From Candidatus Saganbacteria bacterium (GTDB taxonomy: Bacteria; Margulisbacteria; WOR-1; XYC2-FULL-46-14; XYC2-FULL-37-10), in assembly GCA_016223245.1 (NCBI GenBank), contig JACRPL010000009.1, positions 1 to 64,000 of the forward strand: a stretch of 64,000 nucleotides of DNA. Reading direction: 5' to 3'. The notes beneath the pieces were generated by a model, which saw only the letters and a list, made by a program, of their open reading frames with translations, had not been told where the DNA came from and searched no databases. Position 1 is the stretch's first letter; every line of letters starts with the position of its first letter. This document shows, piece by piece, positions 5,651 to 48,247 of the stretch. A program made the translations under genes and the position numbers.

Positions 5651-6550
5651 CTAAGTTTTTTTAGAGGCCTGCGCCAAGGGCGCTCGAGGCGTTTGTCCCG
5701 CAGATACTCTAGGGGATTCTTCAACTTCAATTTTATAAGAGGTGCGAATCTTTTGCGTTTTTCTTTTTACTTCTTCTAAGAGCCGGGCAGTTCCTAATAG
5801 CTGAGCAATATACTCTTTAAAAAGAAACAAGAGCTCTGAATTCATCCAGCGTTCAGCTTCTCCGGTTTTCTCAAAACAAGCAATCAAAAGTCCCGCCAAG
5901 GAATAATTGGTTTTTAAAGGCATTAACATAACTGTTTCAAATTTAGCTAAACTTAAAAGGGATGGGGTCAGCAGTGACAATCGTTTAACGCCATTTTCCG
6001 AAATCAAGGCGGCGACATCTGAAGTAAAATAATTTTTATTGCTTTTAAAGATTATTTTAAGCTTGTTCCCTAAACAAAATCGCACGTTGGCTGTGCTCGT
6101 GGAGAATAAGTCTTCTAATTTTTTGTGCAGGCCGCTTTTGATTCCGCTTGCACATCCAAATTCAAATTCTTTTCTATTATTCATTAAGAACAGAACGGTG
6201 TATTTAGCTTCCAGGGTTTTTCGGGAAAGCGAAGTCACTTTTTCAGCCAGTTTTTTGAGATCGACTTCCCTTAGGCTTTTTAGAGCTTTCAAAATTTTTC
6301 TTTCAGCTAATGGTTGGGGGGCTTTGCCTCCCTTTTTAGAGGGTGTTTCTTCTATGAAGTATGAGAGGGGTTCCCCTAAAAACTCCGCGATTCTTTCCAG
6401 ATCTACCAGGGAAATCCAACGTTTTGCCCTTTCATAATTTGAGATAGAAGCTACGCTATAACCCAGGAGGCCCGCCAATTGTTTGGCGGTAATGTTTTTT
6501 CTTAAGCAGGCCTCTTTAATGCGGCTGCCAACTCTTTCATAAATAGTCAC
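5651..6550 (-). CDS. XRE-family regulator, probable gas-vesicle operon regulator
   Basis: An N-terminal helix-turn-helix of the XRE/Cro type (about residues 5-60; NITAKQLAGLLGYSVASISN) is followed by a region of about 200 residues with GAF-like features and a basic Pro/Ser-rich tail. Two GTG starts are possible (6559 and 6550); 6550 is preferred because an AAGAGG sequence lies 8 bases upstream. It is divergent from the gas-vesicle operon, and a palindromic operator overlaps its own -10 region, so it probably autoregulates. A GAF-like domain would suggest a small-molecule or redox signal; that part is inference. Confidence 0.75.
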   Translation of the reverse strand: MTIYERVGSRIKEACLRKNITAKQLAGLLGYSVASISNYERAKRWISLVDLERIAEFLGEPLSYFIEETPSKKGGKAPQPLAERKILKALKSLREVDLKKLAEKVTSLSRKTLEAKYTVLFLMNNRKEFEFGCASGIKSGLHKKLEDLFSTSTANVRFCLGNKLKIIFKSNKNYFTSDVAALISENGVKRLSLLTPSLLSLAKFETVMLMPLKTNYSLAGLLIACFEKTGEAERWMNSELLFLFKEYIAQLLGTARLLEEVKRKTQKIRTSYKIEVEESPRVSAGQTPRAPLAQASKKT

Positions 6551-6577
6551 TATGCCCACCTCTTTATTTGCTTAAAC

Positions 6578-6610
6578 TTAACATTAACACAATGTTAATA
6601 AGCATGTCAA
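6578..6610 (-). promoter_or_regulatory. promoter and palindromic operator of the XRE regulator
   Basis: On the minus strand TTGACA (6605-6610) is followed after 17 bp by TTAATG (6582-6587). A perfect inverted repeat TTAACATT-AACAC-AATGTTAA occupies 6578-6598 and covers the -10 box. This is the usual layout for autorepression by an HTH protein. A half-site-like TGTTAA lies at 6686-6691, just upstream of the gvp promoter. Confidence 0.6.
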
Positions 6611-6701
6611 TCAAGTTGGGGTGTTTTACATTTTGTTGTTGAGGGGGGGGCATAGCGTTTTGTCAAATAAATGGAATTTACAATATGTTAAGAAATGCCT
6701 A

Positions 6702-6730
6702 TTGCGGCCATTTGCTTGGCTGGCTATACT
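6702..6730 (+). promoter_or_regulatory. putative sigma-70 promoter of the gas-vesicle operon
   Basis: TTGCGG and TATACT are separated by exactly 17 bp. A start near 6737 would give a leader of about 275 bases before gvpA, containing the short leader ORF, the C20 tract and the terminator. A TGTTAA half-site at 6686-6691 resembles the regulator's operator. Confidence 0.5.
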
Positions 6731-6785
6731 TAGTCTCAATGTCGATTGTTTGAGAAAAAAGATTATGGACAAGGAAGCAAAAAAC

Positions 6786-6968
6786 ATGAAGATTAATAAC
6801 GAATATTCCCCCATAGATGTTTCTTTCCGCAGAGAACTGCAGGAGCTTTTCCCCCCCCCCCCCCCCCCCCAGAAATTATGTCGAATAAATAATTATGTAA
6901 AAGCGAATTCAGAATCTGTTTTAGAATCTAAAATAATAAAAGTTGAAATGGAAGCCGAGTTTTTATAA
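6786..6968 (+). CDS. short leader ORF crossing a C20 tract
   Basis: A 60-codon frame from ATG 6786, with AAGGAAG 8 bases upstream. A second ATG at 6765 is in frame but has a poorer ribosome site. The frame passes through a run of 20 C residues (6851-6870), read as consecutive prolines. In either other frame a stop occurs within about 25 bases after the tract. The stop codon (6966-6968) lies in the loop and first 3'-arm bases of the terminator hairpin. No protein family is recognised. The position suggests a regulatory leader ORF controlling gvpA readthrough, but it could also be chance coding. Confidence 0.4.
   Translation: MKINNEYSPIDVSFRRELQELFPPPPPPQKLCRINNYVKANSESVLESKIIKVEMEAEFL
6851..6870. 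repeat. homopolymeric C20 tract
   Basis: Twenty consecutive C residues in an otherwise AT-rich leader; a G8 run lies at 6643-6650. Tracts of this length slip readily during replication and are a known basis of phase variation. The exact length in an assembled sequence can also be wrong. Confidence 0.8.
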
Positions 6969-6979
6969 CTCGGCTTTTT
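6952..6979 (+). terminator. intrinsic terminator in the gvpA leader
   Basis: A perfect 10-bp stem (AAGCCGAGTT / AACTCGGCTT) with a TTTAT loop runs into five T residues. It ends 32 bases before the gvpA start codon, leaving little room for another promoter, so transcription from 6702-6730 must read through it to express the operon. Confidence 0.8.
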
Positions 6980-7011
6980 GTTTATTTTATGTAAAAAGGA
7001 GGTGAAAAAAC

Positions 7012-7218
7012 ATGGCAGTTGAAAAAGCGATTGGAAGCTCCAGCTTGGTAGAAGTGGTTGATCGCATCCTTGATAAGGGATTAGTGATTGATGCTTGGGT
7101 TAGAGTTTCATTGGTTGGTATCGAAATTCTGGCGATTGAAGCCAGAGTGGTCGCCGCATCAGTAGAAACTTATCTAAAGTATGCTGAAGCAATCGGCTTG
7201 ACGGCGACCGCAGCTTAA
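7012..7218 (+). CDS. gvpA: gas vesicle structural protein GvpA
   Basis: A 68-residue GvpA, the small hydrophobic protein that polymerises into ribs forming the gas-vesicle wall. It shows the canonical sequence from [20 protein letters not shown] through [20 protein letters not shown] to [12 protein letters not shown], covering both amphipathic helices and the beta-turn-beta core. Length is standard. A strong AAAGGAGGTG ribosome site precedes the ATG. It is the first gene of the long gas-vesicle operon and is followed by a hairpin that could favour its own expression over downstream genes. Confidence 0.97.
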
Positions 7219-7234
7219 GGCTCGGTCAGTCATA

Positions 7235-7284
7235 AGGGGCCTGCCGAAGCATCCTTTTAAAGCATGCCTCGCCAGGAATCCCCT
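7235..7284 (+). other. imperfect hairpin between gvpA and the next gene
   Basis: AGGGG (7235-7239) and CCTG (7240-7243) can pair with CCCCT (7280-7284) and CAGG (7273-7276), with further partial pairing inside. There is no T run, so it is more likely an RNA-stabilising or processing structure, or a leaky terminator, that raises gvpA mRNA relative to the distal genes. Confidence 0.4.
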
Positions 7285-7297
7285 GAAATAAAAAATT

Positions 7298-7858
7298 ATG
7301 GAAACTAAAGAAATTGAAGTTGGATACCCATTTGAAAATCTAATGCAGGATTATGTGGAACTTCGCGAAAATCTTGCCCGTAATGGCTCTGTGCGCAGAA
7401 AAGATTTCGATAGCATGATGCAGGGGGTTCTTTCAGGCCAGGATAAAAAGGAAAGAGAAATAAAAACCTTGGTCAATGATTATTTTAATGAGCAAAAACA
7501 GATTACCCAAACCTTAAAAGAAAAGTTGGAAGAGTTTAAAGAATCCCTTGCCCGGGGAGATTCTCAAAGAGTTCAAGAGTTTCAGGCTTTTATTAAAGAC
7601 ATTCTTTCAAAGCAGGAACAACGCAAAGAAGAAACAACCATGAAATTGAAGAAATTTCAAAAAGAACAGGAGGTGATGTCAGGAAAACTGAAAGAGCTTT
7701 TAGCCAAGGGACGGGATCTTCGCGCTAAAGATTTCAAAATAATGCTTCAAGAATTAGGAAGCCAAAAAGATGCGAGATTGGCCCGTCAGGAAGAACGAAA
7801 AGAAGAAGTGCGCGAGATTTTGGCTTCCGCGCACAAATATAAAAGAGGAGGGAAATAA
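7298..7858 (+). CDS. coiled-coil repeat protein, GvpC-like candidate
   Basis: A 186-residue, highly charged, almost wholly helical protein. It contains about three degenerate repeats of 50-57 residues, each with a pattern like L..ka.LA+G...R..DF..ml...l..Q..R+.E (around residues 19-70, 76-130 and 135-180). No homologue can be named with certainty. Its position directly after gvpA, its helical repeats and its charge resemble GvpC, the protein that laces the outside of the gas-vesicle shell, so a shell-binding role is inferred. A general coiled-coil scaffold is the alternative. Confidence 0.6.
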   Translation: METKEIEVGYPFENLMQDYVELRENLARNGSVRRKDFDSMMQGVLSGQDKKEREIKTLVNDYFNEQKQITQTLKEKLEEFKESLARGDSQRVQEFQAFIKDILSKQEQRKEETTMKLKKFQKEQEVMSGKLKELLAKGRDLRAKDFKIMLQELGSQKDARLARQEERKEEVREILASAHKYKRGGK

Positions 7859-7860
7859 AC

Positions 7861-8427
7861 ATGGGATTAGCAGATGAGATGAAAAAGATTGCGGAAGATA
7901 TTGTGGTGGCCCATGATCTGCGGGTAAAAGCTGTCGGTGATATAGTAACCGATGTGCATAAAACCCTTAAGGGTTTTGCTTCGGACAGAAAAAAGATGAG
8001 CGCCGAGCAAGCTAAAGACCTGACAGATTTTGTAGCCGAGTTAGCTAAAAACGTGGGCAGTTTAATCAAGGGATTTACAAAAGATCGTAAAGCCATGGCA
8101 GGCGAGTTAAAAGAAACACTGGCAAAAGCAGTCAAAGACATTGAGACCTATGTGGCAAAAAAGCTAAAAGAGTTTTCCGATAGCCACGCGGCAATGAGTG
8201 ACGAACTCAAAAAAGAGCTTGATAAGTATGTCGCAGGCATTGCTTCAGACATCAAAAAACTCCTGGGTGGCTACGCTAAAGACAGAAAAGAACTTGCCGC
8301 TGAATTAAAGAAAATGGCTGCCAATTGGCAGGAGGGGACTAAAGGTCTGGCCAAGAAAAAAGGAGCCAAATCCAAAGTTAAAGCCGGCGCCAGTGTAAAA
8401 TCCGTAGAAGAAGTGATCGGCCGATAG
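7861..8427 (+). CDS. 33-residue-repeat helical protein, GvpC-like candidate
   Basis: A 188-residue Ala/Lys/Asp-rich helical protein. About four repeats of 32-34 residues are visible between residues 35 and 160, each with a block like L.KGF.KDRK.MA.ELK followed by a helix (blocks LKGFASDRKKM, LIKGFTKDRKAM, LKEFSDSHAAM, LLGGYAKDRKEL). A period near 33 is the hallmark of cyanobacterial GvpC, which binds GvpA ribs and stiffens the vesicle. The sequence itself is not clearly GvpC, so the assignment is inferred from period and position. The C-terminus is Lys-rich. It starts 2 bases after the previous stop. Confidence 0.6.
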   Translation: MGLADEMKKIAEDIVVAHDLRVKAVGDIVTDVHKTLKGFASDRKKMSAEQAKDLTDFVAELAKNVGSLIKGFTKDRKAMAGELKETLAKAVKDIETYVAKKLKEFSDSHAAMSDELKKELDKYVAGIASDIKKLLGGYAKDRKELAAELKKMAANWQEGTKGLAKKKGAKSKVKAGASVKSVEEVIGR

Positions 8428-8462
8428 GAAAGAAGAGTAAAAAACTCTTCGAGGGGGCAGAG

Positions 8463-8702
8463 ATGCCGGAGAAAAAACTTTTAACCTGTGCTTTTTGTAA
8501 AGGAACGGGGAAAGATCCCTTTGATCTTCTTTCCCGACTTGCTTCTTGTCAGGTCTGTGGCGGAAAAGGGGAAGTAGAAGTTTATGAACCGATAACAGAG
8601 TGTCCCTTTTGCAAAGGAACAGGCGTTTACCCGCATAGTCGGCTGACCTGTTCTTTTTGCCGAGGGAAGGGAGATTTTACCCGTAGAGGAGGTGAAAAAT
8701 AA
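8463..8702 (+). CDS. stand-alone DnaJ-type zinc-finger protein
   Basis: A 79-residue protein consisting of four CxxCxGxG motifs (CAFCKGTG, CQVCGGKG, CPFCKGTG, CSFCRGKG). This is the full Cys-rich zinc-binding region of DnaJ (Hsp40), without a J domain or substrate-binding domain. In DnaJ this region binds two zinc ions and helps hold unfolded clients. In this operon a J domain occurs separately on the GvpF/L protein at 12606, so the two may act together in folding or delivering vesicle proteins; that link is inference. The ATG is preceded by GAGGGGG. Confidence 0.85.
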   Translation: MPEKKLLTCAFCKGTGKDPFDLLSRLASCQVCGGKGEVEVYEPITECPFCKGTGVYPHSRLTCSFCRGKGDFTRRGGEK

Positions 8703-8703
8703 A

Positions 8704-9624
8704 ATGTATACAAACACAGATGAAATAAACACGGTTCTTGAGCCAACCCCGATGCCGGATTTTGTGGAAACGCCTTATATCAAAGATATTACCGCTCGCG
8801 CTCTTAATTATGTAAAAGCGGGTTTTCCCGTGCATTTCAGAGGGGCTTCCGGCACCGGCAAGACTACTCTTGCTATGCATATTGCCGGTAAACTTAAAAG
8901 GCCCATGGTGCTGCTGCATGGGGATGAGGAGTTTACTACTTCTGATCTGGTGGGCGGTGAATATGGCTATCGCATACGCAAGGTGGTTGATCGTTTTATC
9001 TCCAGAGTATGTAAAACGGAAGAGGATATGGTAAAGCGCTGGGTTGATAATCGCTTGACGGTGGCTTGCAAGTACGGGTTTACATTAATATATGATGAGT
9101 TTACCCGCTCCCGGCCGGAAGCCAACAATATCCTTCTTTCTATTTTAGCGGAAAAGATCATGGATCTGCCGGTAGGGAGAGGTGATGAGCCCTATCTAAA
9201 AGTTCATCCGGAATTTACTGCCATTTTTACTTCTAATCCGGAAGAATATGCCGGAGTGCACCGCAGTCAGGATGCTCTGCGCGACCGCATGGTTACCATG
9301 GATCTGGACCATTTTGATTATGAGACAGAAGTCGCGATAACTAAGGCAAAATCCAAGATCCCCAGAAAAGAAGCGGAGATAATTGTAAATATTGTCAGGG
9401 GATTAAGGGAATCTGAAAAGTGTGAATTTGCGCCCACCATTCGCGGCTGCATCATGATCGCCAAAGCGCTCAAAATCCAAGATTTAAATCTGGTAAGCTC
9501 CAATGGCAGCTTTTTGAATATTTGTCAGGATGTCTTGGCTTCAGAAACCAGCAGGGTGGGATCAAAAACCAATCAGACCAAGGTTAAAGAAATAGTTAAG
9601 GGATTGGTTAAAAAGTGCGCTTAG
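8704..9624 (+). CDS. gvpN: gas vesicle AAA+ ATPase GvpN
   Basis: A GvpN protein of 306 residues, a MoxR-like AAA+ ATPase needed for vesicle enlargement. Walker A GASGTGKTTLA is near residue 50, Walker B LIYDEFTRS follows near residue 125, and the family opening FVETPYIKDITARAL is present. ATG 8704 is preferred over an upstream in-frame GTG at 8692 because GAGGAGG (8685-8691) would overlap the GTG. The gene begins at the end of the zinc-finger gene and is followed by a 30-base gap. Confidence 0.95.
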   Translation: MYTNTDEINTVLEPTPMPDFVETPYIKDITARALNYVKAGFPVHFRGASGTGKTTLAMHIAGKLKRPMVLLHGDEEFTTSDLVGGEYGYRIRKVVDRFISRVCKTEEDMVKRWVDNRLTVACKYGFTLIYDEFTRSRPEANNILLSILAEKIMDLPVGRGDEPYLKVHPEFTAIFTSNPEEYAGVHRSQDALRDRMVTMDLDHFDYETEVAITKAKSKIPRKEAEIIVNIVRGLRESEKCEFAPTIRGCIMIAKALKIQDLNLVSSNGSFLNICQDVLASETSRVGSKTNQTKVKEIVKGLVKKCA

Positions 9625-9653
9625 CCCGGACTTATTAGAAAGGAGGTAGGATC

Positions 9654-9959
9654 GTGAAAAGGAGAACCCAAAGGTTAGGTTTGAGAGACGTTAAATCCAT
9701 GCAATCCATTAGCGCCCGTTCTATTCCCCGGGTACAGAGATCAAGCTATCTGGATTTGTACCTCATGACAGAAAAGAGGCGGCGGCTGGAAAAAGAAATT
9801 TCAATCTTAGAAGTAAGGAGGAATATTGCCAGAAAGCAATTAACCATCATCAATAAAAACATTGATAAATTACAAGGTGAGGGGATTGAAAAACAAAGGG
9901 GAAGGTCTCGTCCGCCCGCTTCCAAGCCGATGAAAAGGATGGCGATACATTATGGTTAA
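9654..9959 (+). CDS. small basic coiled-coil protein of the gas-vesicle operon
   Basis: A 101-residue protein starting at GTG 9654 after AAAGGAGG. The N-terminus is basic and Arg/Ser-rich (MKRRTQRLGLRDVKS); the middle (about residues 35-75) is a short coiled coil with EKRRRLEKEISILEVRR; the C-terminus is basic. No named family is recognised. Its place between gvpN and the Hsp20 gene suggests an accessory assembly role. The stop overlaps the start of the next gene by 8 bases. Confidence 0.6.
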   Translation: MKRRTQRLGLRDVKSMQSISARSIPRVQRSSYLDLYLMTEKRRRLEKEISILEVRRNIARKQLTIINKNIDKLQGEGIEKQRGRSRPPASKPMKRMAIHYG

Positions 9960-10443
9960 AGAACGAGGAGAATTTGGCTTGGGCGGGCTTTTTAAAGGTC
10001 TTGAAACGTTGATCGATCTCGCGGCAAAAGTAAAAGAGGCTGGCGGAGAAATAAAAAAGGAAGGAGAGATCGATCTTAGCCATCTTAAGGAAGGGATGAA
10101 GGGGGTCTTCGGGGTTACAATCAGAACTGCGGAGGGCGGCAAGCCGGTAGTTGAGCCCTTTGGCAACATCAAAAAGACGCCTCAAGGGCCAAGCGTTGAG
10201 GCCGAGAGGGAACCCATCACCGATGTCTTTGATGAAACAGACGAAATTCGCGTCTATGCCGAAATGCCGGGAGTAAATAAGACTGATATTAAATTAGATT
10301 TAAAAGATGATATTCTTGATATTTCAGCCAAAAGCAGGGACAGGAAATATCATAAAGAGGTTTTACTGCCTCTGAAATTAAAGGTAGAAAATTTAATTTT
10401 TAGTTATAAGAATGGTATTTTGGAGGTTAAGATTAAAAAGTGA
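9952..10443 (+). CDS. gvpH: Hsp20-type small heat-shock protein, GvpH-like
   Basis: A 163-residue protein. An N-terminal segment with [15 protein letters not shown] and basic helices precedes an alpha-crystallin (Hsp20) domain at about residues 85-163, seen as [15 protein letters not shown], then [11 protein letters not shown] and the terminal [12 protein letters not shown] strand. GvpH of halophilic archaea and similar proteins in bacterial gas-vesicle clusters have this architecture and act as holdases for vesicle proteins. It overlaps the next gene by 4 bases (GTGA), so translation is probably coupled. Confidence 0.85.
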
Positions 10444-12602
10444 AAGATTTCTTAACCCTAAAGGTAAAAGAGGCACTATCTAAGGATGTCGGCAGGGCGA
10501 TTGCCCGGATTGATCCCGAAGACATGAAGGAACTTAGCTTAGAAGTGGGCAGTATCGCGCAGGTTGAAGGGAAAAGAAAAACGGCGGTGAAGATAATGCC
10601 TTGTTATGCTGAAGAGAGAAGGAAAAAGCTTGTCCAAATGGATGGAATTTCACGAGAGAACGCGCAGGTTGGTCTTGATGAAAAGGTAAAACTTCGGAAA
10701 ATCGACTGCAAGCCCTCTTCTAAAATCACCCTTGCTCCTTTAACCGTATCCAGTTTACTTCGAGGGGAAACAGATGCTAAATATATAGGGTCCCTGATGG
10801 AAGGACTGCCTGTCGTCAAGGGGGACAGGATCAGGGCGATACTTTTTGGTTCAAGATCGTGTGATTTTAAAGTGTTGGATACTATTCCCGATGGTTTTGT
10901 TTTGATGAGCCCTGCTGCCTTATTAAGAATGGAGAGCAAGGGAGGAAAAGAGCCCTGTCCCGTAAAACTTTCATATGAAGATATCGGCGGGCTTTCTACA
11001 CAGATACAAAGGATCAGGGAGATGATCGAACTCCCTCTCCGTTATCCTCAAGTCTTTGACCGGCTGGGGATTGATGCGCCCAAGGGGGTTTTACTTTATG
11101 GTCCTCCGGGAACCGGCAAAACATTAATTGCGCGGGCGGTAGTAAATGAGACTGACGCTTATTTTGTAAGCATTTCCGGTCCGGAAGTGATGGGGAAATT
11201 TTATGGTGAATCCGAAGGCAGGTTGCGCTCCGTTTTTGAAGATGCTCAAAAACATGCTCCGGCTATTATTTTTATTGATGAAATAGACGCCATTGCTCCC
11301 AAAAGAGAAGAGATGGGGGGCGAAAAACAGGTGGAGCGGCGGGTGGTGGCGCAACTCCTCTCTCTGTTGGATGGTTTGGAATCTCGCGGTCAGATCATTG
11401 TAATTGGCGCTACTAATATTCCTAATACTTTAGATCCCGCCTTGAGAAGGCCCGGCCGATTTGACCGGGAAATATCCGTCCCCATTCCGGATAAAAATGG
11501 GCGGCTGGAAATTTTGCAGATCCATACCCGCGGCATGCCTCTCTCAAAAGATGTCAGTCTTGAGAAATTAGCTGAAATTACCCATGGTTTTGTCGGGGCG
11601 GACATTCAGGCCTTAGGCCGGGAAGCGGCAATGTCCGCCTTAAGAAAAATCCTTCCCAAAATAGATTTTGAAATGATGGAAATCCCATATGAGACCCTGC
11701 TTAAACTGGAAGTAACCATGGATAATTTTAGAGAAGCGATGAAGGAAGTTGAACCCTCTGCTATTCGAGAAGTTTTTGTAGAGGTGCCGGACGTCAAATG
11801 GGAAGATGTTGGAGGATTGGATAATATCAAGGAAGAATTGAAAGAAGCGGTTGAGTGGCCACTTAAATATGCGGATGTTTTTAAGCAAGCAAGCACCAAC
11901 CCGCCCAAGGGGATTTTACTCTATGGAGAACCAGGAACCGGCAAGACCCTTTTAGCCAAAGCCGTGGCGCACGAAAGCGGCGTGAATTTTATCTCGATCA
12001 AAGGGCCGCAGCTGATTAGCCAGTATGTGGGTGAATCAGAGCGGGGAGTAAGAGAGATATTTAAGAAAGCAAAACAAGCGGCGCCGACTGTTCTTTTTTT
12101 AGATGAAATTGACAGTCTAGTGCCTAAAAGAGGGTCAAGTTCAACGGATGCTCATGTGACGGAGCGGGTGATCAGCCAGTTTTTAACGGAAATGGACGGG
12201 ATCGAAGAGCTTAAAGGGGTGGTAGTTTTAGCCGCGACTAACCGATTGGATTTGATCGACCCTGCCCTTCTACGCAGCGGTAGATTCGATCTCTTACTCG
12301 AATTGCCTCGGCCTGATACCAAGGCGCGCTTGGAAATATTTCGCATTCATTCCAGGAATAAGCCGTTAGAAAAGGATATTAACTTGAAAGACCTGGCGAA
12401 AAGAACCGAAGGTAAAGCAGGCGCTGACATTGAATTCCTCTGCCGCCGGGCGGCAATGCTTGCCATAAGAGAATTTATCGGGCATAAATGTCCGCAGATG
12501 GATGGCCCGGTAATAAAGCTGAAGCATTTTGAAGATGCTCTTTTATTGGCAGAAAATCAAACTGTAGGGCAAGGGTTTATCCCTTGCTTGCAGGAGAAAT
12601 AA
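10440..12602 (+). CDS. CDC48/VAT-type AAA+ ATPase
   Basis: A 720-residue protein with a double-psi-barrel-like N domain (about residues 1-165) and two AAA+ modules. Module 1 has [12 protein letters not shown] and [14 protein letters not shown] with an RRPGRFDRE arginine-finger block; module 2 has [27 protein letters not shown] and LLRSGRFD. This is the CDC48/p97/VAT architecture, which unfolds or extracts proteins. It starts at GTG 10440 overlapping the Hsp20 stop. It is more familiar from archaea and eukaryotes. Within this operon it probably remodels or disaggregates Gvp proteins; that role is inference. Confidence 0.95.
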
Positions 12603-12605
12603 ATT

Positions 12606-13577
12606 ATGTTGGAAAAATATATTTACGGCATTATAAATTCAAACGAAGAGAAATCTATTAATATCGAAAACGAGAATGCCTATGTAATTTCTTGCGATGG
12701 CATTTCCGCGGTAGTGAGCGATGCGGAAAAAGTTGACTATCGCAATTTGCCCCGAGAGACCTTGGCCAGATGCCTTGTCAAACACCAACAAGTGATTGAG
12801 AAGGTTATGAGGAACTTTACGATTATTCCTATGCGCATGGGAACTTACGCGACGGATGAAGAAGAAGTCAGGCGGATATTGGCAAAAGGGTATCCATTAA
12901 TAAAAGACATATTAAACCGAGCGGCTGATACTGTTGAAATCGATGTCGTCGCGACTCGGAATAATTTTGAACAGATACTCAAAGAAGTCGGAAATGAACC
13001 GGAAATTAAGGAGTTTAAAGAAAAAATAATAACCGAGGCAAAAGGGATTACCCTTGAAGACCAGTTGAAAATTGGAGCTTTGGTTAAAAAAGCCTTGGAT
13101 GCAAAAAAGGAAAGCATCGCTTCTGAAATACAAACGGCGTTAAAACCTGTCAGCCTGGATGTTAAAACGCATGCGGCCATGAATGATCAAATGGTAATGA
13201 ATGCTGCTTTTCTGATTAATATTGTAAACCGAGAAGAATTTGATCAAAAAATAGAGGAGCTGAATGCTAAATATGCGGACAAACTAAATTTTCGCTGTGT
13301 CGGGCCGCTTCCATCCTACAGCTTTTATACTCTTGAAGTCTTGGAGCTGAAATTTGATGAAATAGAATGGGCAAAAAAGAAATTAAGGCTGCGAAGCGGG
13401 CAGATCGGCGAAGATGAAGTAAAAAGAGCGTATAAGAAGTTCGCAAAATTATCTCATCCCGATGTAAAGGAAGGCGGAGATGCGGAGTTCGAGGAGATAA
13501 CCAAGGCCTATAAGCTTTTGAAAAACTATTCCCGGGCGGGAAATGACGCTTTGCTGGTCAAAGTAAGGGAAAGTTAA
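12606..13577 (+). CDS. gvpF/L: GvpF/L protein with C-terminal J domain
   Basis: A 323-residue protein. Residues 1 to about 250 match the GvpL/GvpF family (start EKYIYGIINS; later IPMRMGTYA; VMNAAFLINI; GPLPSYSF). The C-terminus adds a J-domain-like module from about 252, with EDEVKRAYKKFAKLS, the HPD tripeptide at 284-286, and EFEEITKAYKLL. J domains stimulate Hsp70 ATPases. Four GvpF/L paralogues are in this operon and only this one carries the extension. It suggests that Hsp70 is recruited to nascent vesicles, with the zinc-finger half of a DnaJ supplied by the gene at 8463. Confidence 0.9.
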   Translation: MLEKYIYGIINSNEEKSINIENENAYVISCDGISAVVSDAEKVDYRNLPRETLARCLVKHQQVIEKVMRNFTIIPMRMGTYATDEEEVRRILAKGYPLIKDILNRAADTVEIDVVATRNNFEQILKEVGNEPEIKEFKEKIITEAKGITLEDQLKIGALVKKALDAKKESIASEIQTALKPVSLDVKTHAAMNDQMVMNAAFLINIVNREEFDQKIEELNAKYADKLNFRCVGPLPSYSFYTLEVLELKFDEIEWAKKKLRLRSGQIGEDEVKRAYKKFAKLSHPDVKEGGDAEFEEITKAYKLLKNYSRAGNDALLVKVRES

Positions 13578-14344
13578 TGGAAGAAGGCAAATATATCTAT
13601 TGCATTATCGGCACAAAGCAGGAGAGGAACTTTGGCCCTATTGGCACAGGAGAAAGGGGGAATGAAGTTTTAACTATTGGCTATGATGATTTGAGCATGG
13701 TGGTAAGCAGTCATCCCTTGGGCAAACTGATTGTCAATCGTGAAAATATGCTGGCGCATGAGAAGGTAATAGAGAAAGTTATGGAAGAATTTGACGCGGC
13801 GCTGCCGGTCAGGTTTGGAACCGTCGCCTCTTCCGCCGATGAAATAAGGGGGCTTCTGGATAGAAGATATCGGGAATTTAAGAACCTGCTTATGGCAATG
13901 GACCATAAGATAGAATTAGGCGTCAAGGGAATATGGAAAAATATGGATGAAATATTTAATGAAATTGTGGCAGAAAATAGAGAAATTAAGGGACTGAAGG
14001 CGGAAATAGAAAAGCAAAAAGACAAAAAAAACATCCAAGCCAAGATGGCGGTTGGAAAAATGATTGAAGACGCGCTGCAAGCAAAAAAAGAAAAAGAAAG
14101 CGGGGTGATAATTGAAAAATTAAAAAAAACCTCCCTTGATTACAAGCTTAATAAAACCATTAGCGATGAAATGTTTATTAACGCCGCCTTTCTGGTGGAT
14201 AAGGGCAGGGAAAAAGAGTTTGATAATATTATGGCCGACTTGGATCGAAAATATAAAAATCGGGCTAAATTTATGTATGCGGGGCCTTTGCCGCCATATA
14301 ATTTTGTAAATATCACAATTTATCCGGGAAAATGGGAGGCGTAA
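13577..14344 (+). CDS. gvpF/L: GvpF/L family gas vesicle protein
   Basis: A 255-residue GvpL/GvpF-family protein with the usual markers: GKYIYCIIGTK at the start, DLSMVVSSHPLGK, NMLAHEKVIEKVM, LPVRFGTVA, then a charged helical region, MFINAAFLVDK and the closing GPLPPYNFV. GvpF binds GvpA and takes part in nucleation of vesicles. The ATG overlaps the preceding stop (TAATG). No odd residues are apparent. Which of the four paralogues is functionally GvpF or GvpL cannot be decided by reading. Confidence 0.92.
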   Translation: MEEGKYIYCIIGTKQERNFGPIGTGERGNEVLTIGYDDLSMVVSSHPLGKLIVNRENMLAHEKVIEKVMEEFDAALPVRFGTVASSADEIRGLLDRRYREFKNLLMAMDHKIELGVKGIWKNMDEIFNEIVAENREIKGLKAEIEKQKDKKNIQAKMAVGKMIEDALQAKKEKESGVIIEKLKKTSLDYKLNKTISDEMFINAAFLVDKGREKEFDNIMADLDRKYKNRAKFMYAGPLPPYNFVNITIYPGKWEA

Positions 14345-14346
14345 AA

Positions 14347-14814
14347 ATGGTTTTAATTGGTACCGAAGCTGAAGTTGTAAATGTTATTACTAAATTAAAT
14401 GGAGCAAGTAAAAGTGAGATCAATCAGGAAATCAGCTTGACTTTGGACTACATCGGCTATATTTGCAGTTATTTGGTCAGGAAGGGACATCTGATCTATT
14501 TCAGCGGCCGCTATTATCCGGCCGGCACGCCGCTTGAGCTTTTACCCAAAAGACAACCAAAAGTGGATAAAAGCTTTGCCAGTGAGATTGCCGATGAAGT
14601 AGCCAAGAGAATAGGAATAAGTCGCGGTGAGAGGTTGGAGGAAAGGCGGGAAGAGAGAGTAAAAATAAAAACTGACTTTGATGTTCCAATTAAAGACGAA
14701 AGTGTGGGATTAGAAAGCAATATTAATAAAGTCGGCGCAAAGCCGGAAAAAGAAAAGGATGATATTGATGAATTAATTGAATCGTTAACCAGGGTGCGAA
14801 AAGGAGGTAGATAA
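14347..14814 (+). CDS. winged-helix-like protein, paralogue 1
   Basis: A 155-residue protein starting at ATG 14347 (GGGAGG upstream). An in-frame ATG at 14332 would overlap the previous gene. Residues 5-65 form a winged-helix-like fold (GTEAEVVNVITKL, then LDYIGYICSYLVRKGHLIYF) that closely parallels the protein at 15868. A charged, probably disordered tail follows. The two paralogues flank the actin-like gene. A DNA- or protein-binding adaptor is inferred, by analogy with partition systems in which an HTH adaptor links a filament to cargo; it could instead be a transcription factor. Confidence 0.65.
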   Translation: MVLIGTEAEVVNVITKLNGASKSEINQEISLTLDYIGYICSYLVRKGHLIYFSGRYYPAGTPLELLPKRQPKVDKSFASEIADEVAKRIGISRGERLEERREERVKIKTDFDVPIKDESVGLESNINKVGAKPEKEKDDIDELIESLTRVRKGGR

Positions 14815-14815
14815 A

Positions 14816-15862
14816 ATGGCGGCAAGCAGTGAAGAAAGCAAGGTAAAAGAGCTTAAGGGCGAAATACAAAGAGGCAAGGGAGTCGATATTGGGACCATGT
14901 TTGTTAAATGCGCGCAAAAGGAGGAAGACAAAATTGTTTTCCGCTCTCAGCGCAATTCCTTCTTTGAAATAGAGCATAACGATTTTACCAAAAAGATTCT
15001 CGACAATTCTAATGTGCGCTACATTGTCAAGGAAAACAAGCTTTACGTGGTAGGCGATGAGGCGATGCAGTTTGCCAACATGTTCAATCGCGAGGTTAGA
15101 AGACCCTTAGCTAAAGGGGTTATCAGCCCTTCGGAAAAGGAAGCTTTGCCCATGGTGGAATTGCTTATAAAAAGCGCGGTTGGCCAACCCAATCATCAAG
15201 GAGAAATCGTTTATTTTTCGGTGCCGGGTGAACCTCTGGATGCGGAGTTTAATATTATTTATCATTGCAAGGTTCTCGAAGGATTTTTGCATACCCTTGG
15301 CTACACGCCGAAATCAATTAATGAAGCTCATGCCATCGTGCTCTCTGAGCTTGCCGAAGAGGACTTTACCGGTATTGGTCTTTCCTTTGGTGGCGGAATG
15401 GTCAATGTTTGCTTTAGTTTTATGTCGGTGCCGATCTTCAAATTTTCAGTGACCAAAGCGGGTGATTGGATAGATTATCAGACTGCTATGGCGGTGGATG
15501 AAACGGCCAGCCGCGTCTCAGCTATAAAAGAAGCATCTCTGGATCTAACTAAGAAAGACGGTTTAAGTAAAATAGAAACCGCCTTGTCGATTTACTATAA
15601 CCACTTGATTGAATACGTGATAGAGAATATAAAGCAAGAGCTGGACAAAACCAAAAGAATGCCGCAGATTGATAACCCGATAACCATCGTTTTGTCCGGC
15701 GGTACTTCCCTACCCAAGGGGTTTGATCAAAGATTTAGACAAATTTTAGAACAGTTAAAATTGCCACTGCCGGTTGGCAAGGTAAGAATGGCTGCTCAAC
15801 CTCTGCGTTCCGCAGCCAAAGGAGCCTTGGTTGCCGCCAGCGCGGATGAAACGAGGAGGTGA
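14816..15862 (+). CDS. actin/Hsp70-superfamily ATPase in the gas-vesicle operon
   Basis: A 348-residue protein of the actin-like ATPase fold. The phosphate-1 loop GVDIGTMFVKCA is near residue 22, the phosphate-2 block GIGLSFGGGMVNVCF near residue 180, and the adenosine motif VLSGGTSLPKGF near residue 285. This order fits ParM/MreB/FtsA-like or Hsp70-like proteins; it has no Hsp70 substrate domain. No named family is recognised. It lies between two winged-helix paralogues within 2-5 bases. A role in positioning or segregating gas vesicles is suggested, comparable to the ParA-type proteins of some other gas-vesicle loci, but is inference. Confidence 0.8.
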   Translation: MAASSEESKVKELKGEIQRGKGVDIGTMFVKCAQKEEDKIVFRSQRNSFFEIEHNDFTKKILDNSNVRYIVKENKLYVVGDEAMQFANMFNREVRRPLAKGVISPSEKEALPMVELLIKSAVGQPNHQGEIVYFSVPGEPLDAEFNIIYHCKVLEGFLHTLGYTPKSINEAHAIVLSELAEEDFTGIGLSFGGGMVNVCFSFMSVPIFKFSVTKAGDWIDYQTAMAVDETASRVSAIKEASLDLTKKDGLSKIETALSIYYNHLIEYVIENIKQELDKTKRMPQIDNPITIVLSGGTSLPKGFDQRFRQILEQLKLPLPVGKVRMAAQPLRSAAKGALVAASADETRR

Positions 15863-15867
15863 TAAAA

Positions 15868-16122
15868 ATGGCAAGCGGTGGAACAGAAGCAAAGGTCTTG
15901 GATGTGATTGCGCGCTTAAAGTTCCCGGATAGGAGGCAGATCTGCAGGGCTTTAGGAATTTCAATAGAGTATGTGGATTATTTGTTAAATTATCTGCGCA
16001 GGAAGGGACGTTTACTCTACAACAAGGGAAGATATTTTCTTCCCGGTGCAAGGCGAAGGAAAGTTGGTGTTTTAAGAAAGATAAGGAAGAAAAGGAAACC
16101 AGGCAGAAAAAAGAAAAGATAA
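15868..16122 (+). CDS. winged-helix-like protein, paralogue 2
   Basis: An 84-residue protein with start ATG 15868 behind GAGGAGGTGATAAAA, which also holds the actin-like gene's stop. Residues 4-60 match paralogue 1: GTEAKVLDVIARL, then ICRALGISIEYVDYLLNYLR and RKGRLLYNKGRYFLPG. The tail is extremely basic (RRRKVGVLRKIRKKRKPG), suggesting nucleic-acid or membrane binding. It is a shortened version of paralogue 1 without the acidic tail. Function is unknown. Confidence 0.65.
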   Translation: MASGGTEAKVLDVIARLKFPDRRQICRALGISIEYVDYLLNYLRRKGRLLYNKGRYFLPGARRRKVGVLRKIRKKRKPGRKKKR

Positions 16123-16127
16123 TATTG

Positions 16128-16928
16128 ATGGAACAAGCAGTTAAAGAAGGCAAGTATATTTATTGCATAATAAAGGAAAGCAAACCAAAAAAATTTGGCG
16201 TGCTGGGGATTGGCGGCCGGGGGGATCAGCCGTACACAATTTGTTCCGATGGCGTGTCAGCTGTGGTCAGCAACGCTCCGATTAAAAAGTATGCTGTTTC
16301 CAGGGATAATACCCTGGCGCATGAAAAGGCCATAGAAGAAGTGATGAAGGAATACACGGTTTTGCCGGTGCGCTTTTGCACTATTGCGGAAAATGAAAAC
16401 GTGGTCAGGAAGATTTTAGAACATGAGAAGGATAAACTTACGCCTCTTTTTAATAAGGTGGAAGGTAAAAGAGAGTTGGGATTAATGGCGCATTTTAAAG
16501 AAGAAGCGATCTATGCGGAAGTTTTAGAAAAATATCAAGATATAAAGCGGTTAAAAAAGGAGATTGAAATGTTGCCGCCGCTCAAAACTTATCATCAGCG
16601 CATGGAGATCGGAAGAATGGTGGAAACTGCCCTGCGCGAAGAAAATGAGACTTATAAGGAGCTTATTTTAGAATCTTTAATTCCTTTAGCCGAGGAGGTA
16701 AAGGAAAATAATCGCTATGGCGAGATCATGATTATCAATGCTGCCTTTTTGGTAAAAAAGGAAAAAGAGGCGGAGTTCGATGCAAAAGTTAACGAGCTGG
16801 ATGATAAATATGGCAGATTCATGAGATTTAAATATACCGGCAACCTGCCGCCTTTTAATTTCGTTAACTTAATAATTGACACTTCGACTTTCGCTCAGTG
16901 TCCAACAGGGAAGTACTCATGTTCATAA
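16128..16928 (+). CDS. gvpF/L: GvpF/L family gas vesicle protein
   Basis: A 266-residue GvpL/GvpF protein with GKYIYCIIKES, GVSAVVSNAPIKKY, TLAHEKAIEEVMKEYTVLPV and RFCTIA, and the terminal MIINAAFLVKK and GNLPPFNFVNLII. ATG 16128 is preferred over TTG 16125. The last 8-10 residues (CPTGKYSCS) overlap the gvpG start and include two Cys; they extend slightly past the normal end, so the overlap probably serves translational coupling. This is one of four paralogues. Confidence 0.92.
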   Translation: MEQAVKEGKYIYCIIKESKPKKFGVLGIGGRGDQPYTICSDGVSAVVSNAPIKKYAVSRDNTLAHEKAIEEVMKEYTVLPVRFCTIAENENVVRKILEHEKDKLTPLFNKVEGKRELGLMAHFKEEAIYAEVLEKYQDIKRLKKEIEMLPPLKTYHQRMEIGRMVETALREENETYKELILESLIPLAEEVKENNRYGEIMIINAAFLVKKEKEAEFDAKVNELDDKYGRFMRFKYTGNLPPFNFVNLIIDTSTFAQCPTGKYSCS

Positions 16929-17152
16929 TCGATGACATATTGCTTTTGCCTTTGCAGCCAGTATTGATGGTGGCAGAAAAGATCGATGAGATGGTTCAAA
17001 AAGAACTGTACGACGAGGATCGCATCAAGGAGAATCTAATGAATTTGCAGCTTAAACTGGATATGAACCAGATCAGCCAGGAAGAATATGAAAGACAAGA
17101 AAAAAACCTTTTAGAGCGCTTGAATCAAATTATATCGGAAAAGGAGGAGTAA
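16919..17152 (+). CDS. gvpG: gas vesicle protein GvpG
   Basis: A 77-residue GvpG. ATG 16919 gives the canonical opening MFIIDDILLLPLQPVLMVA, followed by an amphipathic helical tail ending EKNLLERLNQIISEKEE. An upstream in-frame GTG at 16898 would add seven residues and remove the typical N-terminus, so it is not used. GvpG is an accessory protein that interacts with GvpF/L during nucleation. It overlaps the end of the preceding GvpF/L gene by 10 bases. Confidence 0.92.
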   Translation: MFIIDDILLLPLQPVLMVAEKIDEMVQKELYDEDRIKENLMNLQLKLDMNQISQEEYERQEKNLLERLNQIISEKEE

Positions 17153-17155
17153 AAA

Positions 17156-17413
17156 ATGGCGAATATTGAAACGGTCGGGAAAACAGTTTCAGAATTTTTA
17201 AAGAAGGCCTTGAACGTTAAAGACGTGAAGGTTGTCAAAGTTGCTAAAATTGATAACAGTTGGGAATGCGAGGCCGAGGTATATGAAGAGAGCTCCTTTA
17301 TAAAATCACTGGGGCTTCCGACCAAAACTCAGGACCGCAACTTTTACAGCGTCAAACTGGATGCCGGATTGGAAGTGGAATCTTACGGGAGAATTAAGGA
17401 AGGAAGCGAATAG
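17156..17413 (+). CDS. gvpO: gas vesicle protein GvpO
   Basis: An 85-residue protein of the GvpO family. It has a predicted alpha-beta fold with an N-terminal helix (TVGKTVSEFLKKAL) and a beta-sheet region containing NSWECEAEVYE and LPTKTQDRNFYSVKLD. GvpO is required for vesicle formation in halobacteria and is common in bacterial clusters, where its biochemical role is unclear. It follows gvpG by 3 bases with AAAAGGAGGAG upstream. Confidence 0.9.
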   Translation: MANIETVGKTVSEFLKKALNVKDVKVVKVAKIDNSWECEAEVYEESSFIKSLGLPTKTQDRNFYSVKLDAGLEVESYGRIKEGSE

Positions 17414-17419
17414 TCGCCA

Positions 17420-18241
17420 ATGCTTATCTATGTGTATTGCATAACCAATATAGAGCCAAATCTAAACGGTTCCAAAGAACTGGTAAACAGTCTTTATTTT
17501 ATCAGTGAGCAGGGACTTTACGCTGTGGTAAGCGGAGAAAAGGAAGAAGAATATGGCCAGGAAAATCTGGAGAAGAACCTCTCTAATCTGGAATGGATCA
17601 AGCAAAAGGCCGCTCTGCATGAAAAAGTGATTGAACAAATTATGGAACAAGTCGGCGTGATTCCCTTTAAGTTTGGAACCCTGTTCAATAATGAACAAAA
17701 TCTGAAAACTATGCTGATTGAACATGGCGAGGAATTCAAGTCTGATTTAGACCGGCTTGCGGATAAAGAAGAATGGGGTATAAAGACCTATTGCGATAAA
17801 GAAAAATTAATACAAAATCTCAAGGTGGAAAATGAAGAGATGAAAGGAATTGACGATGAAATCAATATGGCTTCACCCGGCAAGGCTTTTATCTTAAAGA
17901 AAAAAAAGGAGGAATTGCTGAATATCGTCTTGAGTAAAACTCTCAACATTTATATTCAAGATAGTTTTAATCAATTGTGTAAACATTGCCAAGAAGGATG
18001 CCTTAATCGTTTATTGCCCAGAGAGGCTACCGGAAAGCATGAAGACATGATTCTAAACGCCGCCTTTTTAGTTGCCAGGAATAAAGTTCCCTATTTTAGC
18101 CAAGAAGTTGATTGCCTTAATTCTGATGGCAAAGAAAAAGGGGTTAACTTTGATTTAAGCGGTCCCTGGCCGCCTTATAATTTTTGCCTGCCCCGATCCG
18201 ATCGAGGTCAGCCCATGAATAAGAAGGTCCAAAATGAATAA
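17420..18241 (+). CDS. gvpF/L: GvpF/L family protein with a Cys cluster
   Basis: A 273-residue, divergent GvpL/GvpF protein: MLIYVYCITNIEP, ALHEKVIEQIM, VIPFKFGTLF, ILNAAFLVARNK and GPWPPYNFCL are visible. Unlike the other three paralogues it has a CxxCxxxC cluster at residues 187, 190 and 194 (QLCKHCQEGC) in the loop before the C-terminal domain, plus further Cys near the end. This could bind metal or form disulfides. Three residues do not make a complete classical zinc site, so partner residues are needed. It overlaps the next gene by 8 bases. Confidence 0.88.
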   Translation: MLIYVYCITNIEPNLNGSKELVNSLYFISEQGLYAVVSGEKEEEYGQENLEKNLSNLEWIKQKAALHEKVIEQIMEQVGVIPFKFGTLFNNEQNLKTMLIEHGEEFKSDLDRLADKEEWGIKTYCDKEKLIQNLKVENEEMKGIDDEINMASPGKAFILKKKKEELLNIVLSKTLNIYIQDSFNQLCKHCQEGCLNRLLPREATGKHEDMILNAAFLVARNKVPYFSQEVDCLNSDGKEKGVNFDLSGPWPPYNFCLPRSDRGQPMNKKVQNE

Positions 18242-18449
18242 TATTTATCATAAATCAAAGGATGTTTCTTTATTGGAAGTTTTAGACCGGGTATTAGAAG
18301 CAGGCGTAGTTATCTCCGGAGATATTGTAATATCCGTGGCTGATATAGATCTTGTTTATTTGGGTCTTCGCGCCTTGTTAAGTTCCGTGGAAACCATGGA
18401 GCAATTGAGAGGCGCTCCTATGGCTGGCCCCATGCAGGAATCAAACTAA
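18234..18449 (+). CDS. gvpJ: GvpA-family minor protein (GvpJ/S type)
   Basis: A 71-residue GvpA homologue with VSLLEVLDRVLEAGVVISGD, IVISVADIDLVYLGLRALLS and SVETMEQL. It retains the rib-forming core but differs from GvpA at the positions that mark the minor GvpJ/M/S group (GVVISGDIVISVADIDLVYLG). These proteins are thought to shape the conical tips or nucleate the shell. Start overlaps the upstream stop. GvpJ versus GvpS cannot be separated by eye. Confidence 0.88.
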   Translation: MNNIYHKSKDVSLLEVLDRVLEAGVVISGDIVISVADIDLVYLGLRALLSSVETMEQLRGAPMAGPMQESN

Positions 18450-18450
18450 A

Positions 18451-18765
18451 ATGGAAACGGAAGTTTTAGAAAAAGAAGAACGAAAATTAAAAGGATCCCT
18501 ACCCAACCGGCTTAATATAGATCCTAAGAATGTAGAAAAAGGGTTAGCTAAACTTGTTTTAACTCTGGTTGAGTTAATCAGGAAATTGCTTGAAAAACAA
18601 GCTATGCGGCGCATTGACGGCGGCTCTCTTTCTGATTCTGAAATTGAAAATGTGGGCGAAGCTTTGATGAAGTTGGAAACTAAAATGGGAGAATTAAAAG
18701 AGATCTTCGGGCTAAAAGATGAGGATTTGAATTTGAATCTAGGTCCTTTAGGAGATTTGATGTGA
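18451..18765 (+). CDS. gvpK: gas vesicle protein GvpK
   Basis: A 104-residue GvpK with the well conserved NRLNIDPKNVEKGLAKLVLT, LVELIRKLLEKQAMRRIDGG and the ending LNLNLGPLGDLM. GvpK is an accessory protein of vesicle assembly. Length is normal. It begins 1 base after the GvpJ-like gene and its stop overlaps the next start (GTGA). Confidence 0.95.
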   Translation: METEVLEKEERKLKGSLPNRLNIDPKNVEKGLAKLVLTLVELIRKLLEKQAMRRIDGGSLSDSEIENVGEALMKLETKMGELKEIFGLKDEDLNLNLGPLGDLM

Positions 18766-19028
18766 GACATGAGGAATATCCAAAAATAAGCTGTCCAATA
18801 TTTAAAAGACAAGAAACAGCAATAAAAGATATTACGGATAAAATTAATACGGCTAAAGGAATTAAGGGAAAAGCTGCCCTTGCAGAGGAGCTAGAAAAAG
18901 AAATAGAGGTGCTTCTTTCCTGTCCGGATTACGACGGCGAAAAGCTGGATTGCAGAAATTGTGAGTTCATAGCTAGCTTGCGCAAGCAAACAGCCGCGCT
19001 TATTAGACACGCAAGAAAATTAAGTTAA
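18762..19028 (+). CDS. small Cys-containing helical protein
   Basis: An 88-residue protein starting at GTG 18762, overlapping the gvpK stop. Four Cys occur as ISCPIF, LLSCPDYDG and a CRNCE pair, between and beside long helices (VLLSCPDYDGEKLDCRNCEF; then SLRKQTAALIRHARKL). This could be a zinc- or iron-sulfur-binding helical hairpin. No family is recognised. Its tight coupling to gvpK makes a vesicle-related role likely. Confidence 0.65.
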   Translation: MRHEEYPKISCPIFKRQETAIKDITDKINTAKGIKGKAALAEELEKEIEVLLSCPDYDGEKLDCRNCEFIASLRKQTAALIRHARKLS

Positions 19029-19038
19029 GGGGGATTTT

Positions 19039-19335
19039 ATGATTGAACAAAGAACGATGATGCATCCCATGCAGGCTACTAATCTGGCTGATATTTTAGA
19101 GCGGGTTTTAGATAAGGGAATTGTTATTGCCGGGGATATCAAAATTCAACTGGCTGATATCGATTTGCTTAATATTAAGATAAGGCTCTTAATCGCTTCC
19201 GTAGACAAAGCAATGGAGATGGGAATCAACTGGTGGCAGCAGGATACTTATTTATCAACCAAAGCCAAGGACAAAGCCATTGTCAAAGAAAATGAGGCAT
19301 TGAAGAAAAAATTGGAGCGTTTAGAGGCTAAATGA
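19039..19335 (+). CDS. gvpJ: GvpA-family minor protein (GvpJ/M type)
   Basis: A 98-residue GvpA-family protein. NLADILERVLDKGIVIAGDI and KIQLADIDLLNIKIRLLIAS give the minor GvpJ/M group pattern. A C-terminal extension of about 35 residues, absent from GvpA, ends in a short coiled coil (KENEALKKKLERLEAK). The extension may mediate contacts with the other accessory proteins. The stop overlaps the next ATG by 4 bases. It is the third GvpA-family gene in the locus. Confidence 0.88.
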   Translation: MIEQRTMMHPMQATNLADILERVLDKGIVIAGDIKIQLADIDLLNIKIRLLIASVDKAMEMGINWWQQDTYLSTKAKDKAIVKENEALKKKLERLEAK

Positions 19336-47747: not shown

Positions 47748-48247
47748 CGTTTTAAGATGCTTTCTTTAGCGATCTTTTCTTGGAGTTTAATTATTCCGTC
47801 ATAAAGGGCTTCCGGCCTTGGAGGACAGCCTGGGACATAAACATCGACAGGAATTATTTCGTCTACGCCTTTGATTGTTGTGTACGAATCATAAAAGAAA
47901 GCTCCGCCCGTTATCGCACAGCTTCCCATTGCGATTACATAGCGAGGTTCAGCCATTTGCTCCCAGAGTGTTTTTATGCGAGGCGCCATTTTTTCGGTAA
48001 CAGTACCGGCTACTATCATTAGATCTGTTTGGCGAGGGGAAGCTCGGAATATTAGGCCTAATCGATCCAGATCGAATCTCGAAGCACCCGCCGCCATCAT
48101 CTCGATCGCGCAGCATTTTAGCCCGAATAGGAGATACCATAGTGAATTGGCTCTGCCCCAGTTAAAAAGTTTGTCGGTTGATGTAATGATAATGTTCCCG
48201 CCGGGGATCTTTTCTACATATTCAAATACGTCGCGAGCTAGATCCAT
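47744..48247 (-). CDS. nuoB: NADH-quinone oxidoreductase subunit B
   Basis: A 167-residue subunit carrying the terminal cluster N2. The Cys ligands are in [19 protein letters not shown] and [15 protein letters not shown] 48247 (AAGGGG upstream, 10-base overlap with nuoA) is chosen; an in-frame ATG at 48268 would add seven residues. Confidence 0.95.

Follow-up and report, generated by a model that had tools for sequence, protein, structure and literature searches.

A cytosine tract in a leader ORF ending in a terminator as a candidate phase-variable switch of a Saganbacteria gas-vesicle operon

How could an uncultured bacterium switch its gas vesicles on and off? The question is raised by a locus in which 20 consecutive cytosines lie within a short ORF ahead of gvpA, and for which a preliminary description had proposed an attenuator coupling slippage of this tract to ON/OFF vesicle production. 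The DNA analysed here (the window, 64,000 nucleotides) comes from an assembly of 24 contigs and 1.65 Mb (genome label G000), of which it represents contig 9.

The gas-vesicle locus and its promoter

Read from left to right, the locus consists of a divergent regulator gene on the reverse strand, candidate operators, a promoter, the leader ORF with the C20 tract, a terminator and gvpA. The regulator (5651–6559, 302 aa) carries an HTH_3 domain (PF01381, E 4.4e-12) and a weak match to GAF (PF01590, E 0.15), which is below the cut-off. The first gene past the proposed gate is gvpA, encoding the major gas-vesicle protein (7012–7218, forward strand; PF00741, E 3.8e-15) and preceded by the Shine-Dalgarno sequence AGGAGG (6997–7002). 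The remaining cluster (7298–19335, same strand) encodes GvpF/L copies, GvpG, GvpK, two more GvpA-like proteins, an AAA ATPase, a CDC48-like protein and Hsp20; with PF00741 in three genes of the window next to GvpL/F, GvpG, GvpK and the AAA ATPase, it qualifies as a gas-vesicle operon. The cluster also holds a GvpL/GvpF protein with a C-terminal DnaJ domain (12606–13577) and an actin-like protein matching Volactin (14816–15862; Pfam, E 4e-90).

Among 57 related genomes searched for gas-vesicle genes, 31 of which form the class subset, such genes were found in three (3/57, or 3/31 within the class), namely G000, G018 and G025, and the comparison within the lineage is consequently one of three loci only. 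The nearest gvpA relative of the window is found in G018 (locus L045), a “Candidatus Saganbacteria” MAG of the same class (NC_groundwater_1859, contig JACRKQ010000090); the third locus, L005, belongs to G025. The name Saganbacteria is used here for all three loci by their shared class, and stands in a record only for G018.

The sequence TTAACANNNTGTTAA, which was spotted by eye before the motif scan, has one exact match each in the window (candidate operator 1, 6584–6598), in L045 and in L005, always in the divergent intergenic region. It is followed by a second, weaker copy with one mismatch in the window (candidate operator 2, 6677–6691), three in L045 and two in L005, the centre of which lies 18 nt ahead of the –35 element in all three loci (6684/6702, 1713/1731 and 994/1012, respectively). 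A G8 run at 6643–6650, between both operators, is the only C/G run of at least eight in the window apart from the C20 tract.

The predicted promoter of the operon, TTGCGG-17-TATACT (6702–6730, forward strand), had been described as good. By its sequence it is only fair, since TTGCGG matches TTGACA at three of six positions, for which reason it was missed by a consensus scan; its score, obtained with a hand-entered matrix, falls between the 90th and 95th percentile of the best scores per 200 bp. However, its position relative to operator 2 is conserved in 3/3 loci. It is also the best-scoring site in 6560–7011, and its counterparts rank first (L045) and second (L005) by score in their regions. 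The sequence comparison thus supports this promoter, which is probably under the control of the divergent HTH regulator.

Other promoter-like sites bear on the alternative that there is no switch at all, i.e., that the tract keeps its length or arose in assembly, with gvpA transcribed from a promoter within the ORF or overlapping the hairpin. Candidates at 6908 and, weaker, at 6943 (TTGAAA-15-TATAAC, overlapping the hairpin) would suit this reading, as would a higher-scoring site at 1295 in L005, ~150 nt before its gvpA and lacking a counterpart in the other two loci; the promoter at 6702 is, however, the only one conserved in position relative to the operator. A promoter between the terminator and gvpA, which would have spoken against the switch, finds no room there in full length.

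Tract, leader ORF and terminator

The C20 tract is found exactly at 6851–6870 on the forward strand, inside the ORF as described, where it encodes six prolines and forms a candidate slippage site. It is the sole C or G run of at least ten in the window (11 overlapping C10 matches against a mean of 0.14 in dinucleotide shuffles) and the longest of the 12 C/G runs of at least nine in the 1.65 Mb genome, the next being of 12, 11, 10 and 10. A viral_contigs scan with a 25-base flank of the tract gave no match. A MutS-family protein is encoded in G000, so that loss of mismatch repair is not indicated.

Two other tracts of this genome lie in promoter-like spacers, as would be expected of contingency loci. 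The first is a G9 (L037 ~1501; G000:C21:60677–60685) in a 15-nt spacer between a perfect TTGACA and TAGAAT, followed by a GGAGG site, and is by its sequence a likely phase-variable promoter; the second is a C10 (L034 ~1501; G000:C16:9273–9282) that covers the end of the –35 element and the spacer of TTGCCC-17-TATTAT, with a 505-aa ORF downstream, the start of which resembles a secreted protein. The idea that most tracts in G000 lie in promoter spacers did not hold in general and is at best suggestive: among 24 sides (all 12 tracts, both strands, with positions in the same loci as control), a –10-like hexamer directly follows the tract at four (p ≤ 0.05; L010, L027, L030 and L037), of which only L037 has a good –35, while L034 reached p 0.056 with a good –35.

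The predicted leader ORF (6786–6968, forward strand, 60 aa, with PPPPPP in its middle) starts with the ATG at 6786 and is preceded by the Shine-Dalgarno-like AAGGA at 6771–6775, both as previously described; a Pfam search with it gave no match. Its stop codon TAA (6966–6968) spans the boundary between loop and 3′ arm of a hairpin, taking one base of the former and two of the latter, again in line with the preliminary description. This hairpin (6951–6977; 11 bp, loop of 5, –15.7 kcal/mol, z –6.2) and a T-rich tail to 6990 make up a predicted intrinsic terminator (6951–6990) 34 nt before gvpA, and not 32 as had been given. None of 500 shuffles of 6871–7011 yielded –15.5 or better (best –10.6), and among the three sites at –13 or better on both strands of the 64-kb window it is the strongest, the others being located at 1559–1588 on the forward strand (–13.3, within the ORF 1454–2023) and at 47896–47927 on the reverse strand (–15.3). 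A looser consensus scan returned one terminator-like site in 6500–7350 versus 0.8 expected. When folded at full length, the leader pairs the tract region with the Shine-Dalgarno sequence of gvpA, and this pairing is unchanged with 19, 20 or 21 Cs.

The reading frame past the tract depends on its length. With 17, 20 or 23 Cs (3k+2), the ORF reaches the hairpin; with 18 or 21, translation would end at 6892, 58 nt ahead of it, and with 19 or 22 at 6888, 62 nt ahead, which bears out the claim that a change by one C closes the frame within about 25 bases of the tract. When the sequence from tract to hairpin was shuffled (n = 5000), the frame given by 20 Cs reached the hairpin in 5.3% and any frame in 15%; in 13%, a single frame did so while both others met an early stop. 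Shuffling the leader as well (n = 5000) produced an ATG-started ORF running across the tract to a stop within the hairpin in 1.1%. By these figures, the frame geometry taken by itself is mildly significant; tract and terminator both exceed chance expectation by a wide margin.

All parts, their spacing and the consequences for the frame are present in the sequence, and from these we infer that the leader ORF may be translated, that the tract may slip and that the terminator may be strong in vivo. RNA polymerase starting at 6702–6730 would transcribe the leader ORF; with 3k+2 Cs, as in the present tract, a ribosome would reach the stop in the hairpin and cover it, and polymerase would proceed into gvpA (ON). 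Slippage by one C in either direction would end translation before the hairpin, the terminator would fold and the operon would be largely silent (OFF). A C20 tract in an ORF that ends in a terminator could thus plausibly switch buoyancy organelles on and off. On balance, we lean towards such a phase-variable, translation-dependent attenuator of gas vesicles: order and spacing of the elements fit, the promoter is conserved and a precedent exists in the pil1 leader of Streptococcus gallolyticus, while the absence of the attenuator in the two relatives speaks against it. That vesicle production varies with the tract by one termination route or the other is a broader claim, which we regard as likely.

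The coupling itself may be incomplete, since only 165 nt separate the leader ATG from the hairpin and terminators in the initial 100 bp of a coding region are able to act unrepressed by the ribosome (PMC4824070); at the present distance, a ribosome could already be close behind polymerase or still lag. The other termination route is polarity by Rho, in which the untranslated leader RNA past a premature stop would load Rho and terminate transcription before gvpA, the hairpin playing a minor part. Rho (PF07497) is encoded in G000, the OFF frames leave ~60 nt untranslated before the hairpin, just past C20, and the meningococcal siaD gene is an example of polarity after a C-tract frameshift. Polyproline stalls are moreover reported to expose rut sites to Rho in E. 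coli (PMC5021804). However, a strong predicted intrinsic terminator is already in place, and the C tract is translated in every frame and therefore not freshly exposed by a frameshift, which makes Rho as the main agent decidedly unlikely.

Comparison with relatives and other gvpA loci

In contrast to the promoter, for which the spacing to the operator is kept in 3/3 loci, the leader ORF and the terminator are not conserved in the two relatives. A terminator scan of L045 found none comparable before gvpA, and reading and folding of L005 gave a hairpin before gvpA without a T-rich tail. G018 and G025 likewise carry a small ORF between promoter and gvpA, and these two are homologous (28 columns are invariant between them, and a search of whole genomes gave E 9e-10). 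By its position, the leader ORF of the window had been expected to belong with them; this was rejected, as no similarity was detectable (no G000 match in the whole-genome search, hhalign probability 0.1%). A suspected resemblance of the G018 and G025 proteins to DUF2292 was dropped because no Pfam match was obtained for any of the three.

The small ORFs of the relatives would nevertheless allow for a reading in which the leader ORF encodes a phase-variable small protein in gas-vesicle control and the hairpin is a partial terminator that sets a fixed gvp level, as the same slot holds a conserved small protein in both. Against it, the window ORF shows no similarity to this protein and no Pfam match, and while codon usage supports its 5′ part (+4.2 bits), beyond the tract it is unlike that of a gene (–7.0 bits, though the best of six frames); we therefore hold this reading to be unlikely. 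In G018, the Shine-Dalgarno sequence of gvpA and the end of the small ORF pair in a hairpin (L045:1935–1994, z –3.5), with the stop codon of this ORF in the loop. Judged by this one predicted fold, translation of the small ORF could thus gate gvpA at the translational level.

Further C and G tracts in the lineage are relevant to slippage as such. G018 contains two C/G runs of at least 12, of which the longer, a C18, is the longest C tract of its genome; it is found within the divergent regulator gene, at a distance of 1004 bp from gvpA. A run of at least 12 this near to gvpA would be met by chance with a probability of ~0.003 (2 runs × 2 kb / 1.5 Mb; our own estimate). The C18 (L045:974–991) and a G10 (1434–1443), both given on the coding strand, are located in the HTH regulator divergent from gvpA, which, as read from the sequence, has a histidine-kinase-like tail. 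At the C18, the regulator ORF overlaps the start of the next gene, encoding a response regulator, and 17 or 19 Cs would place its stop 31–39 nt earlier; the G10 is nearer to the start of the ORF, which a frame shift would truncate after the HTH domain. Long slippage-prone tracts consequently adjoin gvp genes twice, in different places, and both tracts of G018 lend independent support to gas-vesicle phase variation in the lineage, the C18 being a long C tract in the gas-vesicle control of a relative. G025 has no C/G run of at least 12 in its genome and none of at least seven in L005.

Across the class, C/G runs of at least 12 occur in 13 of the 31 genomes, with 20 runs in all by our own grouping. 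Some of these may be artefacts, as the C runs of G007, one of 34, begin at contig starts and two others are adjacent to Ns. Assembly is prone to errors in long homopolymers, which would favour the absence of a switch; the C18 beside the gvp locus of G018 comes from a separate assembly and argues against an isolated artefact, so that, together with the conserved promoter position, a stable or artefactual tract appears quite unlikely to us.

Beyond the lineage, 80 gvpA loci were fetched, some of which hold less than 700 nt upstream, and a strict terminator scan was applied to the 73 with at least 150 nt. A terminator-like hairpin lies within 250 nt upstream of gvpA in 18/73 and within 100 nt in only 5/73 (L046, L048, L054, L103 and L111), which does not support a general attenuator before gvpA across bacteria. 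In two planctomycete MAGs (L046:2778–2950 and L048:2814–2945), a predicted intrinsic terminator is found 49–56 nt before gvpA, and an ORF ends within its hairpin or directly at it; L046 has a C11 run further upstream. Around gvpA (700 nt upstream to 250 nt downstream), C/G runs of at least eight were present in 2/80 loci (L045 and L046).

Known leader switches and possible biological meaning

The principle of such a switch is already known, as the proposed mechanism matches that of S. gallolyticus pil1. There, pil1 expression is high when translation ends inside or beside the hairpin and low when it ends at least 28 nt upstream, a logic proven with mutants of the terminator, the start codon and the stop (Danne et al., 2014; PMC3894217). 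The window leader shares with pil1 and pil3, as described there, a repeat within a short leader ORF, a terminator before the first structural gene and ON/OFF states set by the stop position (PMC3894217): it has a short ORF with start signals ahead of the operon, a slippage-prone C20 within it, a predicted terminator between it and the first gene, and one frame stopping in the hairpin while the others stop well beyond 28 nt upstream. It differs in its single-base C tract and gas-vesicle target, where pil1 and pil3 have five-base GCAGA repeats and a pilus, and further in its hexaproline, its operator-linked promoter and its uncultured Saganbacteria host; moreover, pil1 is proven by mutants (PMC3894217), whereas the present leader is known from its sequence only. 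The distances agree with those at E. coli tR2, where a stop a few bp away brings nearly full repression and efficiency is ~0.9 beyond 30 bp (PMC4824070).

As in E. coli pyrBI (PMC4824070, PMC5021804), a ribosome close behind polymerase would block a terminator hairpin before the operon. Unlike at pyrBI, where the signal is metabolic, the proposed signal here is a change of tract length in the DNA. The metabolic signal of the pyr system acts via UTP and polymerase pausing.

Six prolines followed by a terminator also recall the PPPPPP-pyrL reporter of E. coli, in which EF-P decides on read-through and which, in contrast to the switch proposed here, is an artificial construct and has no phase variation (Elgamal et al., 2016; PMC5021804). 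In this work, PPPPPP before the pyrL terminator lowered reporter output 26-fold without EF-P, and in the rpoB2 background 32-fold without versus 1.3-fold with EF-P. In whichever frame it is read, the C tract yields at least six prolines, a feature absent from the preliminary description, and EF-P is encoded in G000; given this precedent, the leader may respond to EF-P status besides tract length, and the hexaproline stall could be an added, EF-P-dependent physiological input. The six prolines could instead stall the ribosome in such a way that OFF is forced in every frame, or ON is spoiled. A two-input gate, in which the heritable frame of the C tract sets ribosome access and EF-P-dependent passage of the hexaproline sets the timing, with the small ORF before gvpA as a recurrent checkpoint that is built variously at the RNA level (in the window from a terminator, in G018 from the hairpin pairing the Shine-Dalgarno sequence), is a rather doubtful extension of the attenuator model.

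Homopolymer slippage shifts the frame or the promoter spacing also in contingency loci of Neisseria, Campylobacter, Listeria and other bacteria; these usually truncate a structural gene or alter promoter strength, whereas the tract of the window lies in a leader ORF upstream. Neither a single-base tract nor a gas-vesicle target in such a leader switch was found in the literature searched. Searches for gas-vesicle phase variation returned no publication on the topic (judged by title and start of the abstract), those for slipped-strand mispairing at gas-vesicle genes returned nothing, and homopolymeric tracts combined with leader peptides and attenuation led only to Campylobacter small-protein work. 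Phase variation has been studied mostly in pathogens and surface structures. In haloarchaea, there are vesicle-loss mutants caused by insertion elements.

If the attenuator works as proposed, it would add an independent example of pil1-type leader control, based on a repeat of the simplest kind and with a new kind of target, and would form a natural counterpart of the artificial PPPPPP-terminator reporter that showed EF-P to keep transcription and translation coupled. For the organism itself, a slippage switch of buoyancy in an uncultured environmental lineage would amount to bet-hedging on vertical position.
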